Positions 20,528 through 28,886 of a DNA stretch of 64,000 nucleotides are shown one piece after another. A program made the position numbers and the translations under genes. The DNA is from Cyanobium sp. NIES-981. Its GTDB lineage: Bacteria; Cyanobacteriota; Cyanobacteriia; PCC-6307; Cyanobiaceae. The stretch is taken from the NCBI RefSeq assembly GCF_900088535.1, contig NZ_LT578417.1, positions 1,364,001-1,428,000 of the forward strand, in the 5' to 3' direction. Below the pieces are notes generated by a model that worked only from the letters and a program-made list of their open reading frames with translations, had not been told where the DNA came from and made no database searches. How positions within the stretch are numbered: the first letter of the stretch is position 1; each line of letters starts with the position of its first letter.

Positions 20528-21526
20528 ATGATGTCTTCCCCCCTGTCTGCCCTGCTGCTGCTGTTGCTGGGCGCCCTTGTTGCTCGCCTCACGGCCAAGC
20601 GGATGAAACGGTGGGCCGTGCCTGCCCTTGTGCTTGAGCTGCTGGTGGGTTTTCTCCTGGGGAACACCGTGCTGCCGTTCAGCCGGATCCAACCTCTCTC
20701 AGGGATCACGGATCTGGGAGTTCTCACTCTCTTCTTTCTTGTTGGCCTGGAGGTGCGTGGTGGACTCCTGGGCCCACGCCCTGGTGTCGTGCTGCGACTG
20801 GTGCTGCTTTCCGCTCTCACACCACTTCTGGCCTGGTGGCCGCTGAAGCACCTGTTCAACCTGGCCGGCTCCACCACGGTGCTGTTCCTGGCGGTGCTCA
20901 GCGCCACGGGCACAGGAGTGACGCTGCGGGCGCTGTCTCAGGGCGGTGCCCTGCAGACACCTTCTGGCCAGTTGCTGGTGGGAGTTTCAGTGCTTGACGA
21001 CCTGCCTGCCATCCTGCTGCTGATGCTGGCCACGCTTCTTGGATCCGCGACAGGTGCACCTGGGGAAGCCAACCCAGCAGCTGGGAACGCACTGTTGGCC
21101 ACCGGGCTGGTGTTGGCTGTTATGGCCCTGAGCTTCCCGCTCTGCCGCTGGTGGCGGAGTCATCGCGGACGCTGGACACCTGATGCGCTGGGAGTGATGC
21201 TTGTGCTCGCTGGCAGCAGCTGGCTTGGGGAGGTGTCCGGCCTCACCAGCTTGCTGGGCGCCCTCTGGGGAGGCATGCTGCTGCGGCAGCTGTTGCCGGA
21301 GCCGGGGCACGCGCAGTTGGGGCCAGGGCTGCATAGCCCACTGGCCTTGCTTTCGGACGTGTTCCTCCCGCTTTACTTCCTGAGTGTGGGTCTGAGCCTC
21401 GAGGCCGCCAGTCTGCTGGAGCCTTCGGCCTGGGGGATGGCAACTGTGCTGTTCCTGGTGGCCGTGCTCTGCAAACTGATTTGCGGGGTGGGAATCAGCC
21501 AGAGCGATGAGCAGGCAGGGGTCTGA
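20528..21526 (+). pseudogene. CPA2 Na+(K+)/H+ antiporter, N-terminal part (split by IS3)
   Basis: Residues 1-332 of a cation/proton antiporter of the KefB/GerN type, with about ten membrane segments, GVSVLDDLPAILLLML (the Asp-Asp ion-binding pair) and LYFLSVGLSLEA. The frame ends at the first base triplet of the inserted IS element (TGA is the start of its terminal repeat). The missing C-terminal 62 residues are found intact, in frame, on the far side of the element (22768-22956). A truncated membrane protein could still be made, but it lacks the last two membrane segments. Confidence 0.85.
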
Positions 21527-21597
21527 CGTGGACCCCGGGAATTGGTCCAGGGTGAATGAGAGTCCTCAGCCGGCCAGACTGGGCCGGGGACTTCACC

Positions 21598-21876
21598 ATG
21601 AAACGCACCAGGCACACAGCGGAGCAGATCATCCGCAAGCTCAAGACCGCCGACCAGCTGATTGCCCAGGGCAAGACCGTCGCCGATGTCTGCCGCGTCA
21701 TCGAGGTGACGCAGCCGACGTATCACCGCTGGCGGCAGCAGTACGGCGGCATGCAGGCCGAGGAGGCCCGCCGGCTGACGCAGCTGGAGAAGGAGAACGC
21801 CCGGCTCAAGAAGTTGTTGGCAGAAGCCGAGTTGGAGAAGGCGATGCTCAAGGACCTTGCGGAGGGAAACTTCTGA
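21598..21876 (+). CDS. IS3-family transposase OrfA
   Basis: A 92-residue HTH protein ([23 protein letters not shown] at ~7-50) followed by a leucine-zipper-like coiled coil ([20 protein letters not shown]). It binds the terminal repeats and forms the N terminus of the OrfAB transposase. The end of the gene carries GGGAAAC (21864-21870) in the phase G GGA AAC, a canonical X XXY YYZ slippery heptamer. Slippage leads into orfB just before the orfA stop. Confidence 0.9.
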
Positions 21877-22712
21877 GCCCGGAACGCCGTCGCAGGGCCG
21901 TCACGGTCCTGCAGGAGCGTTACCGGGCATCAGAGCGCCAGGCCTGCCGTGTTGTGGGGCAGCACCGCAGCACCCAGCGCCATTGCGGGAAGGTCGTCGA
22001 CCTGGAGGAGACCAAGCTTCGGCACCGCCTGAGGGAGATTGCAGCTGAGCACATCCGCTGGGGCCGCCGCATGGCCTACCGCCTGCTGCGTCGGGAGGGC
22101 TGGACCGTGAACCACAAGCGGGTGCAACGGCTCTGGCGGGAGGAGGGGCTGCAGCGGCCCACTCCCAGGAAGCGGAAGCGGGCACGGCCCGCCGACGGCT
22201 CGGTGAGGCGTCACCGGGCCCAGCATCCCCACCAGGTGTGGGCCATGGATTTCCAGTTCGATGCCACCGCCGATGGCCGCAGACTCAAGTTCCTGAACGT
22301 GATCGACGAGCACAGCCGCCTCTGCCTGGCGATCCGGGTGGGCAGGCGGTGCAAGGCCAAAGACGTGGTGACTGTGCTGGAGGAACTCACCAGCCTCTAC
22401 CCGGCGCCAGCGTTCATCCGATCGGACAACGGCCCTGAGTTCATTGCCCAGGCTCTACGGGACTGGTGTGAGACCAATACCACCACCAGCACGGCCTACA
22501 TCGAGCCAGGATCCCCGTGGGAGAACGGTTTTGCCGAGTCGTTCAACGGCCGGTTCCGGGATGAGTTCCTCAACACCGAGTTGTTCACCACAGCCCCGGA
22601 GGCTCAGATCCTGGCCGATCGCTGGCGATGGGAGTACAACACGCTCAGGCCACACTCGGCCCTCCAAGGGCGTACGCCCATGGAGGCAGCTCAACAAGGA
22701 GCTGCAGCATGA
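21870..22712 (+). CDS. IS3-family transposase OrfB (expressed by -1 frameshift)
   Basis: Catalytic part with the rve integrase core. The DDE residues are in [21 protein letters not shown] and [19 protein letters not shown]. The N-terminal part has the HTH_21-like block [20 protein letters not shown]. No good start codon exists at the beginning of the frame (it opens with CTT CTG AGC), which supports synthesis as an OrfAB fusion by slippage at GGGAAAC rather than independent initiation. Confidence 0.9.
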
Positions 22713-24248: not shown

Positions 24249-25248
24249 TCAGCGCGTCCTGGCGAAGAGGCGATCCCAGAGGCCGCCCTTGCCGAAGAAC
24301 TCCTCGTTCACCTGGCTCCAGCCGCCGAAATCCTGCACCGAGAAGAACCGCTTCACCGGTGCGAAGCGATCCTTCACCCGCGCCCACACGGTGGGGCTGG
24401 TGGGCCGGAAGCCCTCCTCGGCAAAGATGGTCTGGGCTTCCTCGGAGAAGAGGTAGGCGGCCAGAGCTTCGGCGGCCTCACGGGTGCCCTTGCGGTTCAC
24501 GTTTCTGTCCACCACGGCCACAGGCCCCTCGATGCGGATGTTCAGCTCGGGCACCACGAAGGGATCGCGCAGACCGTCGCTTCTGGTGGCCAGGATCGCC
24601 TCATTCTCGTAGTTGAGCAGCACATCCCCCTGGCCGCGCTTGAGGAACACGTCGGAAGCTTCCCGCGCATCCTTGGGCAGGTTGTCCACCTTGCTGTACA
24701 CGCTGGTGACGTAGGCCTCCGCCTGCTGGGGCGAGCCGCCGGTCTGGGTGATCGACCCCCAGAGGCCGAGGAAGTTCCAGCGGGCGCCGCCGGAGGTCTT
24801 CGGGTTGGCGGTCACCACCGTGACACCGGGCTTGGCCAGATCGCTCCAGCCGGTGATGCCCCTGGGATTCCCGGGGCGGGTGAGGAAGGCCACGGCGGAG
24901 TTGGTGATGATGCTGCTGTTGGGCAGCTCCTGCTGCCAGCCGGCCTCGATCAAGCCGGCCTCCTCCAGTTTGAACACATCGGCGGAGAGGGCCAGCGTCA
25001 CCACATCGGCATCGAGGCCGTCGATCACGGCCCGGGTCTGGGAACCGGAGCCGCCGTAGCTGGTCTTGATCTCCAGCTCCTGGCCGGTCTTCTGCTTCCA
25101 GTCCTCCTGGAAGCAGAAGACCGGCCAGGAGCTGGCGGGCCGGATCGGGGCCGCGGGAGCCCGGGCCCGCACTGCCGCAGCCGGCCAGAAGCACGAGGGC
25201 GGCGGCGGCCAGGAGCGCCCGCCGGCGCAGGGGGACAACAGGATCCAT
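24249..25248 (-). pseudogene. sbpA: Sulfate-binding lipoprotein, frameshifted at a hairpin
   Basis: Periplasmic sulfate-binding protein of the CysTWA importer. From ATG 25248 the frame encodes a lipoprotein signal (MDPVVPLRRRALLAAA, lipobox LLAGC), but after GPDPAR it runs into the 29-bp inverted repeat and loses the family frame. The mature part continues in another frame: WKQKTGQELEIKTSYGGSG, RAVIDGLDADVVTLALSADV, TANPKTSGGARWNFLGLWG and YLFSEEAQTIFAEEGFRPT. The conserved first strand (family: LLNVSYDPTRE) between the two parts is gone. As sequenced, no single frame gives an exported, complete protein. A sequencing or assembly error at the hairpin is the main alternative. Confidence 0.85.
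25073..25135. repeat. 29-bp perfect inverted repeat with 5-nt spacer inside sbpA
   Basis: Arms 25073-25101 and 25107-25135 are perfect complements around TCCTC. The low-coordinate arm, read on the minus strand, encodes the conserved WKQKTGQEL of sulfate-binding proteins. The other arm is its inverted copy and replaces family sequence. This is what template switching between strands at a quasi-palindrome would leave. Confidence 0.95.
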
Positions 25249-25268: not shown

Positions 25269-25381
25269 GGGAACTGCAGAATGGTAAGGCCTTCGGAGCG
25301 ATTCCGGGCCAGGGCAGGGTGGATTTCCCATCTGCGAACCGGCCTTTGCCTGGCACACTGGTCGCAGCAGCCCGTCCGCCG

Positions 25382-25813
25382 ATGGCCTTCAGCGCCAAGA
25401 TGGAGTACGGCCTGGTGGCCCTGATCGAGCTCGCCGCAGCCCACGCCAGCCGCGAGCTGGTGCAGGCCGGCGAGCTCTGCCGCCGCCACGACCTGCCCGA
25501 GCGCTACGTGGAGCAGGTGCTCACGCGGCTGCGCAAGGGGGGCTACCTCACCAGCATCCGCGGGCCCCGTGGCGGGTTCCAGCTCACCCGCTCGCCCGAG
25601 CGGATCACGATTGCGGAGCTGGAGCAGTGCCTCGACGGCGAGTCCACCCCGGAGCGGCAGGGAAACCGGAGCAACCCCGCCTTCCAGGTGCTGGACCGTC
25701 TGGCCGGCAGGGCCGAGCAGGCCCGCACCGCGCTGCTGGCCTCCACCACCCTGGCCCAGCTGCTGCTGGAGCGCGACAGCCTGCGGCAGCCGGCCCCGAT
25801 GTTCTACATCTGA
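25382..25813 (+). CDS. Rrf2-family transcriptional regulator
   Basis: A 143-residue winged-helix repressor: FSAKMEYGLVALIELAAAH, ELCRRHDLPERYVEQVLTRL and the wing GGYLTSIRGPRGGFQLTRSP. It lacks the three clustered cysteines by which IscR holds a 2Fe-2S cluster, so it resembles the cluster-free CymR branch that controls sulfur and cysteine genes. Its position between sbpA (divergent) and cysA supports control of this sulfate locus. The ATG at 25382 was chosen; an upstream in-frame start at 25319 would add 21 residues without similarity. Confidence 0.82.
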   Translation: MAFSAKMEYGLVALIELAAAHASRELVQAGELCRRHDLPERYVEQVLTRLRKGGYLTSIRGPRGGFQLTRSPERITIAELEQCLDGESTPERQGNRSNPAFQVLDRLAGRAEQARTALLASTTLAQLLLERDSLRQPAPMFYI

Positions 25814-25856: not shown

Positions 25857-26852
25857 TCAGATGGCAAAGTCCGGCACGAAGGTGCGGGAATCGCGGCTGG
25901 TGATGTGGAGGGCATCCCCGGGCCGCAGGCTGCGATGGTCGATCCGCTCGCGCGGCAGCTGGGCGATCACCAGCTCACCGCTGGCCAGGGTGAGCTCGGC
26001 CTGGATGTCACGCCCCAGGTGCGTGAGGCGGCGCAGCACCGCCGGCACGCTCCCCTCCCGCGGCAGGCGATGCAGCTCGAGATCGTGGGGTCGAATGAAC
26101 AGCTGGCCCCCTGGCCCGCAGTCCTTCGCTGGCTGCTGGGCGGCACCGGCCAGGGGAATGTGCGGCGGCAGCACATTCACCGCCCCCACGAACCGCATCA
26201 CGAACGGACTGGCGGGCTGGTCGTAGATCTGGGCCGGGGTGCCGATCTGCTCGATCCGGCCCCGGTTCATCACCACGATCCGATCGGCCACCTCCATGGC
26301 CTCCTCCTGGTCGTGGGTCACGATCACCGTGGTGACGTGCATCTCCTCGTGGAGATGGCGCAGCCAGGCCCGCAGCTCCTTGCGCACCTGGGCGTCGAGG
26401 GCACTGAAGGGCTCATCGAGCAGCAGCACCCGCGGCTGCACCGCCAGGGCCCGGGCCAGGGCGACCCGCTGGCGCTGGCCGCCGGAGAGCTGGGAGGGGT
26501 AGCGGTTGCCGAAGCCCTGCAGCTGCACCAGCTCCAGCAGCTCATCGACGCGCCGGCGGATCGCCTCGTGCTTCCAGCCGCGCAGCTCCAGCCCGAAACC
26601 CACGTTCTGGCGCACGGTGCGGTGCTTGAACAGGGCGAAGTGCTGGAACACGAAGCCCACCTGGCGCTCCTGCACCGAGCGGGTGGTGGCCTCCTCGCCG
26701 GTGATCCACACCCGGCCGGCATCGGCCTGCTCCAGGCCGGCGATCAGCCGCAGCAGGGCCACCAGGGAGCCGGTGTCCACATCGAGGCTCACATGGTCCA
26801 CCGCCCGGAAGGAGCCGAACTCCTTGCACACGCCAGCAACGCGGATACCCAT
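25857..26852 (-). CDS. cysA: Sulfate ABC transporter ATPase lacking its Walker A loop
   Basis: ATP-binding subunit of the sulfate/thiosulfate importer, 331 residues. Present are the Q-loop ([10 protein letters not shown]), signature [16 protein letters not shown], Walker [13 protein letters not shown], the H-loop [16 protein letters not shown] and a C-terminal TOBE-like domain. The N-terminal sequence reads TGSLVALL then RLIAGLEQ. The ~11 residues of the P-loop (family GPSGSGKSTLL) that belong between them are absent, in frame, at 26749-26760. Without it the protein should not bind or hydrolyse ATP. A deletion between two CCCTGCTG copies would explain the exact loss. Confidence 0.9.
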
Positions 26853-26923: not shown

Positions 26924-26972
26924 AATAAACAGCCGAACGGTGATACGGTCCGCCCACCTCTGGGTTCCCTCC

Positions 26973-27842
26973 ATGGCTCCTGCGCTCCTGGCCCGCCGCC
27001 GGGGCTTCGCCTGGCCGCGCTGGCTGCAGCTCAGCTGGTCGTGGCGGATCACCTGGCTCGGCCTCAGCCTGGTGCTGTTTCTGCCTCTCGGGGCCCTGGC
27101 CCTCAAGGCGGCGGCGGTGGGGCCCAGCCAGTTCTGGCAGCTGGCCACCACGCCGGAGGCCCTGGCCACCTACCGGATCAGCTTCGGGCTGGCGCTGCTG
27201 GCCGCCCTGGTCAACGGCGTGTTCGGCGTGGTGATCGCCTGGGCCCTGGTGCGCTGCGCCTTCCCCGGCCGGCGCCTGCTGGATTCCCTGATCGATCTCC
27301 CCTTTGCCCTGCCCACGGCCGTGGCGGGCCTGGCCCTGGCCGCGATCTACAGCAGCAACGGCTGGCTGGGGGCTCCGCTGCAGGCCCTGTTCGGCCTCAA
27401 GGTGTCGTTCACCTGGCTGGGGGTGGCCATCGCCATGGTGTTCATCTCCCTGCCCTTCGTGGTGCGCAGCGTGGAGCCGGTGCTGGAGGCGCTGGAACAC
27501 GATCAGGAGGAGGCCGCCTGGTGCCTCGGCGCCACCCCCCGCCAGACCCTGCGCAAGGTGGTGCTGCCCCAGCTGATGCCGGCGATCCTGGCCGGCGTGG
27601 CCCAGGGCTACAGCCGCGCCGTGGGCGAATACGGCTCGGTGGTGATGATCTCCTCCAACGTGCCCTTCCAGGATCTGATCACCCCCACCCTGATCATCCA
27701 GAAGCTGGAGGAGTACGACTTCGCCTCCGCCACGGTGATCGGCATGGTGATGCTGCTGTTCTCCCTGCTGAGCCTGCTGCTGATCAACGGCCTGCAGGTG
27801 TGGGGGCGCCACTGGGAAGCCAACCCTGCCCGGAGCGTCTGA
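26973..27842 (+). CDS. cysT: Sulfate ABC transporter permease CysT
   Basis: Inner-membrane permease subunit of 289 residues with six membrane segments. Family blocks are SLIDLPFALPTAVAGLAL, FTWLGVAIAMVFISLPFVVR and the EAA loop EEAAWCLGATPRQTLRKVVLP, followed by GYSRAVGEYGSVVMISSNVP. It appears intact. It is divergent from cysA and followed by cysW after a repeat-containing spacer. An alternative start is 26940. Confidence 0.93.
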   Translation: MAPALLARRRGFAWPRWLQLSWSWRITWLGLSLVLFLPLGALALKAAAVGPSQFWQLATTPEALATYRISFGLALLAALVNGVFGVVIAWALVRCAFPGRRLLDSLIDLPFALPTAVAGLALAAIYSSNGWLGAPLQALFGLKVSFTWLGVAIAMVFISLPFVVRSVEPVLEALEHDQEEAAWCLGATPRQTLRKVVLPQLMPAILAGVAQGYSRAVGEYGSVVMISSNVPFQDLITPTLIIQKLEEYDFASATVIGMVMLLFSLLSLLLINGLQVWGRHWEANPARSV

Positions 27843-27845
27843 GCC

Positions 27846-27923
27846 TGACAACGCACCGCGGTGACAACGCACCGCGATGACGACGCACGGCGATGGCGAC
27901 GCACCGCAATGGCGACGCATCCC
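27846..27923 (+). repeat. 16-bp tandem repeat between cysT and cysW
   Basis: Nearly five units: TGACAACGCACCGCGG, TGACAACGCACCGCGA, TGACGACGCACGGCGA, TGGCGACGCACCGCAA and a partial TGGCGACGCATCCC. They fill most of the 141-base spacer between the two permease genes, so copy number would change the distance in an operon. Confidence 0.85.
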
Positions 27924-27983
27924 AGCCCCATCCCTTCCTCTGTTCCCTTGATTTCCGCTGTTTCCGCCGTTCCCCACCGCCCC

Positions 27984-28886
27984 ATGCGACCCCTGCTGCG
28001 CTCCCTGGCTGAAGCCCTGCCCCGCCCATCGGCCTCCTTCCTCGTTCCCCTGATCGCCTGCCTCTACGTGGGAGTGATCATCCTCCTGCCGGCCCTGGAG
28101 GTGGTGGCCGGGGCCTTCGCCAAGGGGCTGGCGCCCTTCCTGGAGAACGTCCACTCCGAGGAGCTGCGCTCCGCGGTGCTGCTCACCCTGCGCTGCACCC
28201 TGATCGCCGTGCCGGCCAACACGATCTTCGGGCTGGCGGCGGCCACCGCGATCGCCCGGCGCCAGTTCCCCGGCAAGGCCCTGCTGCTGAGTGTGATCGA
28301 CCTGCCCTTCTCGATCTCGCCGGTGGTGGTGGGGCTGATGCTGGTGCTGCTCTACAGCCCCACCAACGGCCTGCTGGGCGGGATCGTGAGCAGCCTGGGC
28401 TGGCAGATCATCTTCTCCTGGCCGGGCATGGCGCTGGCCACGATCATCGTGACCTTCCCGTTCATGGCCCGGGAGGTGATTCCCCTGCTCGAAGAGGAGG
28501 GCTGGGATCAGGAGGAGGCGGCCCGCACCCTCGGTGCCAGCAACTGGCAGGTGTTCTGGAAGGTCACCCTGCCCTCGGTGCGCTGGGCGGTGGTGTACGG
28601 CCTGATCCTCACCACGGCTCGGGCCCTGGGGGAATTCGGCGCCGTGGCCGTGGTGAGCGGCAACATCGCCGGCCAGACCCAGACCCTGCCGCTGTTCGTG
28701 GAGGACGCCTACAAGCAGTACAACACCGAGCTGGCCTATGGCGCCGCCCTGGTGCTCGGCGGCGTGGGGCTGGTGTCGCTGCTGCTCAAGCTGGTGGTGG
28801 AGCAGATGCTGGGGCAGAAGCACCCGCAGCCAGGCAGGAGCACCGCCCAACGCGCAGACACAGCCACGGAAACCGGCTGGGATTGA
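27984..28886 (+). CDS. cysW: Sulfate ABC transporter permease CysW
   Basis: Second permease subunit, 300 residues, six membrane segments. Seen are SVIDLPFSISPVVVGLMLVL, FSWPGMALATIIVTFPFMAR, the EAA loop EEAARTLGASNWQVFWKVTLP and ARALGEFGAVAVVSGNIAG. No damage is visible, in contrast to sbpA and cysA. The ATG at 27984 lies after the tandem repeat; the open frame upstream is repeat-derived. Confidence 0.93.
   Translation: MRPLLRSLAEALPRPSASFLVPLIACLYVGVIILLPALEVVAGAFAKGLAPFLENVHSEELRSAVLLTLRCTLIAVPANTIFGLAAATAIARRQFPGKALLLSVIDLPFSISPVVVGLMLVLLYSPTNGLLGGIVSSLGWQIIFSWPGMALATIIVTFPFMAREVIPLLEEEGWDQEEAARTLGASNWQVFWKVTLPSVRWAVVYGLILTTARALGEFGAVAVVSGNIAGQTQTLPLFVEDAYKQYNTELAYGAALVLGGVGLVSLLLKLVVEQMLGQKHPQPGRSTAQRADTATETGWD

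Follow-up and report, generated by a model that had tools for sequence, protein, structure and literature searches.

The window, a stretch of 64,000 nucleotides from the chromosome of Cyanobium sp. NIES-981, lies in a single contig of 3,021,545 bp and contains the genes for a sulfate-binding protein, the ATPase CysA, the permeases CysT and CysW, and an Rrf2-family regulator (Table 1). In this complement the locus resembles the freshwater CysTWA-SbpA transporter (PMC5478717, PMC9361551), from which it differs in that the binding protein is frameshifted and devoid of its first strand and that CysA has no Walker A motif. A functional sulfate ABC transporter combines a binding protein whose signal and mature part share one reading frame, a CysA subunit with Walker A, and the CysT and CysW permeases. 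Here the two permeases are present and the other two components are broken.

The binding-protein gene runs on the minus strand. As the sequence-only reading had proposed, its signal peptide and its mature part lie in different frames. The frame starting at the ATG at 25248 reads MDPVVPLRRRALLAAAALVLLAGCGSAGPGSRGPDPARQLL and includes a lipoprotein-type signal, ALVLLAGCGS, followed by a linker ending in ARQLL. The mature part, which contains FQEDWKQKTGQELEIKTSYGG, falls in another frame and is not accompanied by a signal peptide. Both frames are open across the intervening hairpin. Indeed, the mature frame is open as far as the GTG at 25358, and thus an automatic annotation could still call a protein of 369 residues, albeit one without a signal sequence.

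A single sulfate-binding protein is found in the window and in two relatives, G003 and G004, in which the gene lies next to that for the Rrf2 protein. Many other relatives (L018, L019, L021 and L024 among them, at ∼4.8-6.9 kb of the locus) carry a tandem pair, the first copy of which is ∼53-67% identical to the binding protein of the window. Given this pair, we considered whether the gene in the window is a fusion of tandem paralogues to which binding protein 1 contributed the signal and binding protein 2 the body. The idea was rejected on two grounds: the signal in the window is of the LLAGC lipoprotein type observed in the second copy of the relatives, and G003 and G004 are also single-copy. 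An Rrf2 homologue adjoins the binding-protein gene in many relatives. In one further genome, the cysT homologue (G002:C35:24158-25042, L103) shows one TGA inside the match, which could mean either that the gene copy is damaged or that the match extends beyond it. Located at 21507-22712 on the plus strand of the window is a transposase-like open reading frame with an IS3-type appearance, the N-terminal part of which is seemingly out of frame with the catalytic part.

With respect to possible backups, no second sulfate-binding protein was found in the NIES-981 genome. A protein search of the same genome revealed no close second CysA, the next best match being 50% identical over part of its length. 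The genome does encode four SulP-family proteins (PF00916), which may include bicarbonate carriers.

Table 1 Features of the sulfate transporter locus (positions are those of the window)
Feature	Positions	Strand	Remarks
Mature sulfate-binding protein, second frame, open to its stop	24249..25118	-	TIGR00971; 1sbp match from residue 24
Native hairpin arm	25073..25101		Encodes WKQKTGQEL on minus strand; conserved in relatives
Hairpin loop, 5 nt	25102..25106		GAGGA on coding strand; taken as native
Inverted-copy hairpin arm, upstream in the direction of the gene	25107..25135		Replaces first strand of mature protein; absent in all relatives
5' fragment of sulfate-binding-protein gene, first frame	25136..25248	-	ATG, LLAGC lipoprotein-type signal and linker; of the type of the relatives' second binding protein
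Rrf2-family regulator, flanked by the two broken genes	25319..25813	+	CymR cysteine-metabolism model matched below cut-off
cysA, sulfate ABC transporter ATPase, 331 aa	25857..26852	-	TIGR00968; lacks 11 residues, among them the complete Walker A motif
cysA deletion junction, single remaining CCCTGCTG	26751..26758	-	Relatives have 33 more nt, encoding GPSGSGKSTLL
cysT permease, apparently intact	26940..27842	+	Above TIGR02139 cut-off
cysW permease, apparently intact	27861..28886	+	TIGR02140 326.6 bits (cut-off 329.1); above TIGR00969 subfamily cut-off

The hairpin and its counterparts in relatives

The two frames of the binding-protein gene meet at a perfect inverted repeat with arms of 29 bp (29/29 nt, 100% complementary) separated by a loop of 5 nt. 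The sequence-only reading had placed this repeat exactly, at 25073-25135, and had assigned its arms correctly, one as the coding sequence for WKQKTGQEL and the other as an inverted copy that takes the place of the first strand of the mature protein. The RNA fold calculated for the hairpin has an energy of -68.5 kcal/mol as compared to a mean of -32.7 kcal/mol for shuffled sequences (z = -9.7). In a census covering the window and a 400-kb sample of the NIES-981 genome, spread across the chromosome in 20 stretches, perfect hairpins reached at most 12 bp in the remainder of the window and 17 bp in the sample (loop ≤60 nt). Across 0.93 Mb of the relatives' loci the corresponding maximum was 24 bp (loop ≤30 nt). 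Against this background, a perfect hairpin of 29 bp within a coding region is an extreme outlier. The arms have no match elsewhere in the NIES-981 genome beyond themselves, and for this reason the hairpin is not ascribed to a mobile element or to repeated sequence. A stretch of 54 nt with a 13-bp inverted repeat occurs three times in the sampled genome (L130:14651-14704, L130:15389-15442, and L132:1184-1237), and probably represents a repeated gene or mobile element.

Homologues from 78 loci and from the genus were read at the hairpin site. The first strand of the mature protein is intact in all 129 copies with enough upstream sequence, 116 of which were recognized by a strict motif and 13 by inspection (variants such as TYAVT, SFAVT, SYAVTQ, and SYMVT). 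The hairpin is present in none of these 129 copies, nor is there a perfect stem longer than 10 bp at the site in any of them. The comparison with relatives that had been suggested as a check on the initial reading thus points to a derived state in the window and an ancestor lacking the perfect repeat. The closest copies read LLLVSYAVTKGAYDRILP-x-F-x-x-x-WK, and the spacing from the serine of the first strand to the tryptophan of WK is a constant 19 codons in all 118 copies measured. Judging from these close relatives, the strand lost from the window was almost certainly of the LLLVSYAVTKGAYDRILPxF type. The motif LLNVSYDPTRE, which had been put forward as the original, is not the local form. 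That the missing strand had moved elsewhere in the window was also considered and rejected, as no frame there contains SYAVT, LVSYA, or YDRIL.

A second lesion in CysA

The gene for CysA bears a lesion of another kind, which is a new finding beyond the sequence-only reading. In the relatives, the P-loop motif lies between two CCCTGCTG-like repeat copies, of which the window keeps one. The P-loop (SLVALLGPSGSGKSTLLR-type sequence) is present in 37 of 37 relatives' copies and absent from that of the window, the missing 33 nt being precisely those that encode it. The deletion is in frame. A slippage event between the 8-nt direct repeats CCCTGCTG, separate from the event that formed the hairpin, would account for the removal of the motif. 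An ABC ATPase without Walker A should be unable to bind ATP. Other ABC ATPases encoded in the NIES-981 genome keep their P-loops, and thus a fault affecting the assembly in general does not explain the deletion in CysA.

Origin of the hairpin

The distance from the CAG codon for glutamine to the TTC codon for phenylalanine is 19 nt in the window versus 57 or 60 nt in the relatives. Because the glutamine occupies one of two positions in the relatives, the net loss amounts to either 38 or 41 nt, and in both cases a frameshift results. Within the hairpin arm one can distinguish CTTCCAG on the inner side, CCAGCTCCTG on the outer side, and 12 nt between them. The inner segment is native at the corresponding position in L049 and L050 (7/7), and nine letters of the outer segment, CAGCTCCTG, are native at the corresponding position in L046 (9/10). 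Note that the native quasi-palindrome is a composite drawn from several relatives since no single one of them shows both microhomologies at full length. Had both been present in the ancestor of NIES-981, a wrongly templated tract of no more than 12 nt would suffice.

That templates are switched at quasi-palindromes has been established with Escherichia coli (PMC7202029), and such events are described as giving rise to new perfect hairpins (PMC8794818). The template-switching origin advanced in the sequence-only reading is supported by the present data in that native sequence has been replaced by an inverted copy of nearby sequence. One such switch explains the perfection of the inverted copy, the replacement of the first strand rather than an insertion beside it, the net deletion with its frameshift, and the microhomology, native in relatives, at each breakpoint. 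In the scheme that we infer, the quasi-palindrome of the intact gene would have comprised an inner stem, CTTCCAG/CTGGAAG, that enclosed the loop, together with the outer repeats CCAGCTCCTG/CAGGAGCTGG. While the gene-complementary strand was being made, the nascent 3' end would fold back on the inner stem, copy ∼12 nt of the strand already synthesized, within the WKQKTGQEL codons, and then return to the true template by pairing at the outer repeat, after which synthesis would go on. Such a fold-back would skip the first strand of the mature protein and leave the perfect 29-bp hairpin, the net loss of 38 or 41 nt, and the frameshift. The expected outcome is a null allele of the only sulfate-binding protein.

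As in the quasipalindrome-associated template switches of E. coli (PMC7202029), an imperfect inverted repeat would have become perfect through copying by the nascent strand, with the other arm explaining the change. The window differs in that it holds a natural cyanobacterial allele, that the inverted tract is longer, and that the net loss amounts to 38 or 41 nt. It shares with the hairpin-creating switches described in PMC8794818 a perfect reverse-complement stem from one event, but those cases concern RNA genes, in which a stem is made or kept, whereas the event in the window destroys a protein gene.

An artefact of sequencing, amplification, or assembly, the alternative offered in the sequence-only reading, would confine the hairpin to the deposited consensus. 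Inverted chimeras are a known geometry in amplified DNA, and the species is represented by one assembly. The NIES-981 chromosome was, however, assembled with HGAP from PacBio RS II reads of a single 20-kb library at ∼220x coverage (PMC4966465), which makes an amplification or assembly fault unlikely. Additionally, the breakpoints fall at microhomologies that are native in relatives, and cysA of the same transporter bears its independent and unrelated lesion. Palindromes from missed adapters are expected to have kilobase arms, whereas the arms observed here are 29 bp and are accompanied by the internal loss. An artefact is accordingly considered improbable.

A genuine mutation by a route other than intrastrand fold-back, either microhomology-mediated break repair giving an inverted duplication or the use of a sister-strand template, could produce the same final sequence, from which neither the strand nor the enzyme can be read. 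Against this, the copied arm adjoins the native one across a loop of 5 nt, its length of 29 nt is typical of nascent-strand fold-back at quasi-palindromes, and a single fold-back step suffices. There is, in our estimation, little chance that another route was taken. That the hairpin is instead functional, as a programmed frameshift site, attenuator, or phase-variable switch controlling the binding protein, is suggested by the very stable predicted RNA fold and the two open frames, but it is most improbable given that the hairpin is absent from all relatives, that the ATPase of the same system has no P-loop, and that a frameshift would not restore a complete protein because the first strand is missing in whichever frame. 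Equally little credence is given to a maintained, perhaps reversible element that tunes a truncated cytoplasmic binding protein in a new role independent of ATP-driven uptake.

Habitat and the probable loss of sulfate transport

The preferred reading, namely that the hairpin is the scar of a fold-back mutation rather than a functional element and that, together with the slippage in CysA, it is consistent with a sulfate ABC transporter of the freshwater type being lost from a marine strain that has SulP-family transporters, is very probably correct. NIES-981 is a marine strain from tidal-flat sand in Okinawa (PMC4966465), and it has also been named among brackish representatives (PMC9361551). 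In picocyanobacteria, CysWT/CysPA was reported in none of the marine strains and in 1 of 17 brackish ones (PMC9361551), and the high sulfate content of the ocean has been given as the explanation for the absence of the sulfate ABC transporter (PMC5478717). Within the genus, the binding protein is encoded in 4 of 13 genomes and CysT in 5 of 13, and SulP-family genes are found in all 13.

The simplest reading of the lesions is the recent decay of a sulfate transporter that is no longer needed. Such decay, if real, is recent because CysT and CysW look intact. CysA of the window has nine private amino acid changes, as compared to at most five in any relative, and dN on the branch leading to the window is raised for CysA and in some of the triads also for the binding protein. 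These values are weakly suggestive of relaxed selection. The contrast with CysT and CysW is not significant (p = 0.15), and thus no formal claim of relaxed selection is made; the genes of the locus give discordant distances.

The locus is a neat instance of known processes, a known class of mutation in a known transporter, and not a new system. It offers a clean case from nature of a bacterial coding gene in which a hairpin was formed by mutation in one step, and the switch points can be read from relatives. The hairpin and the P-loop deletion together present a habitat-linked transporter apparently caught during its loss. In surveys of gene presence, the strain could be scored as possessing CysWTA and a sulfate-binding protein even though two of the four parts are broken.
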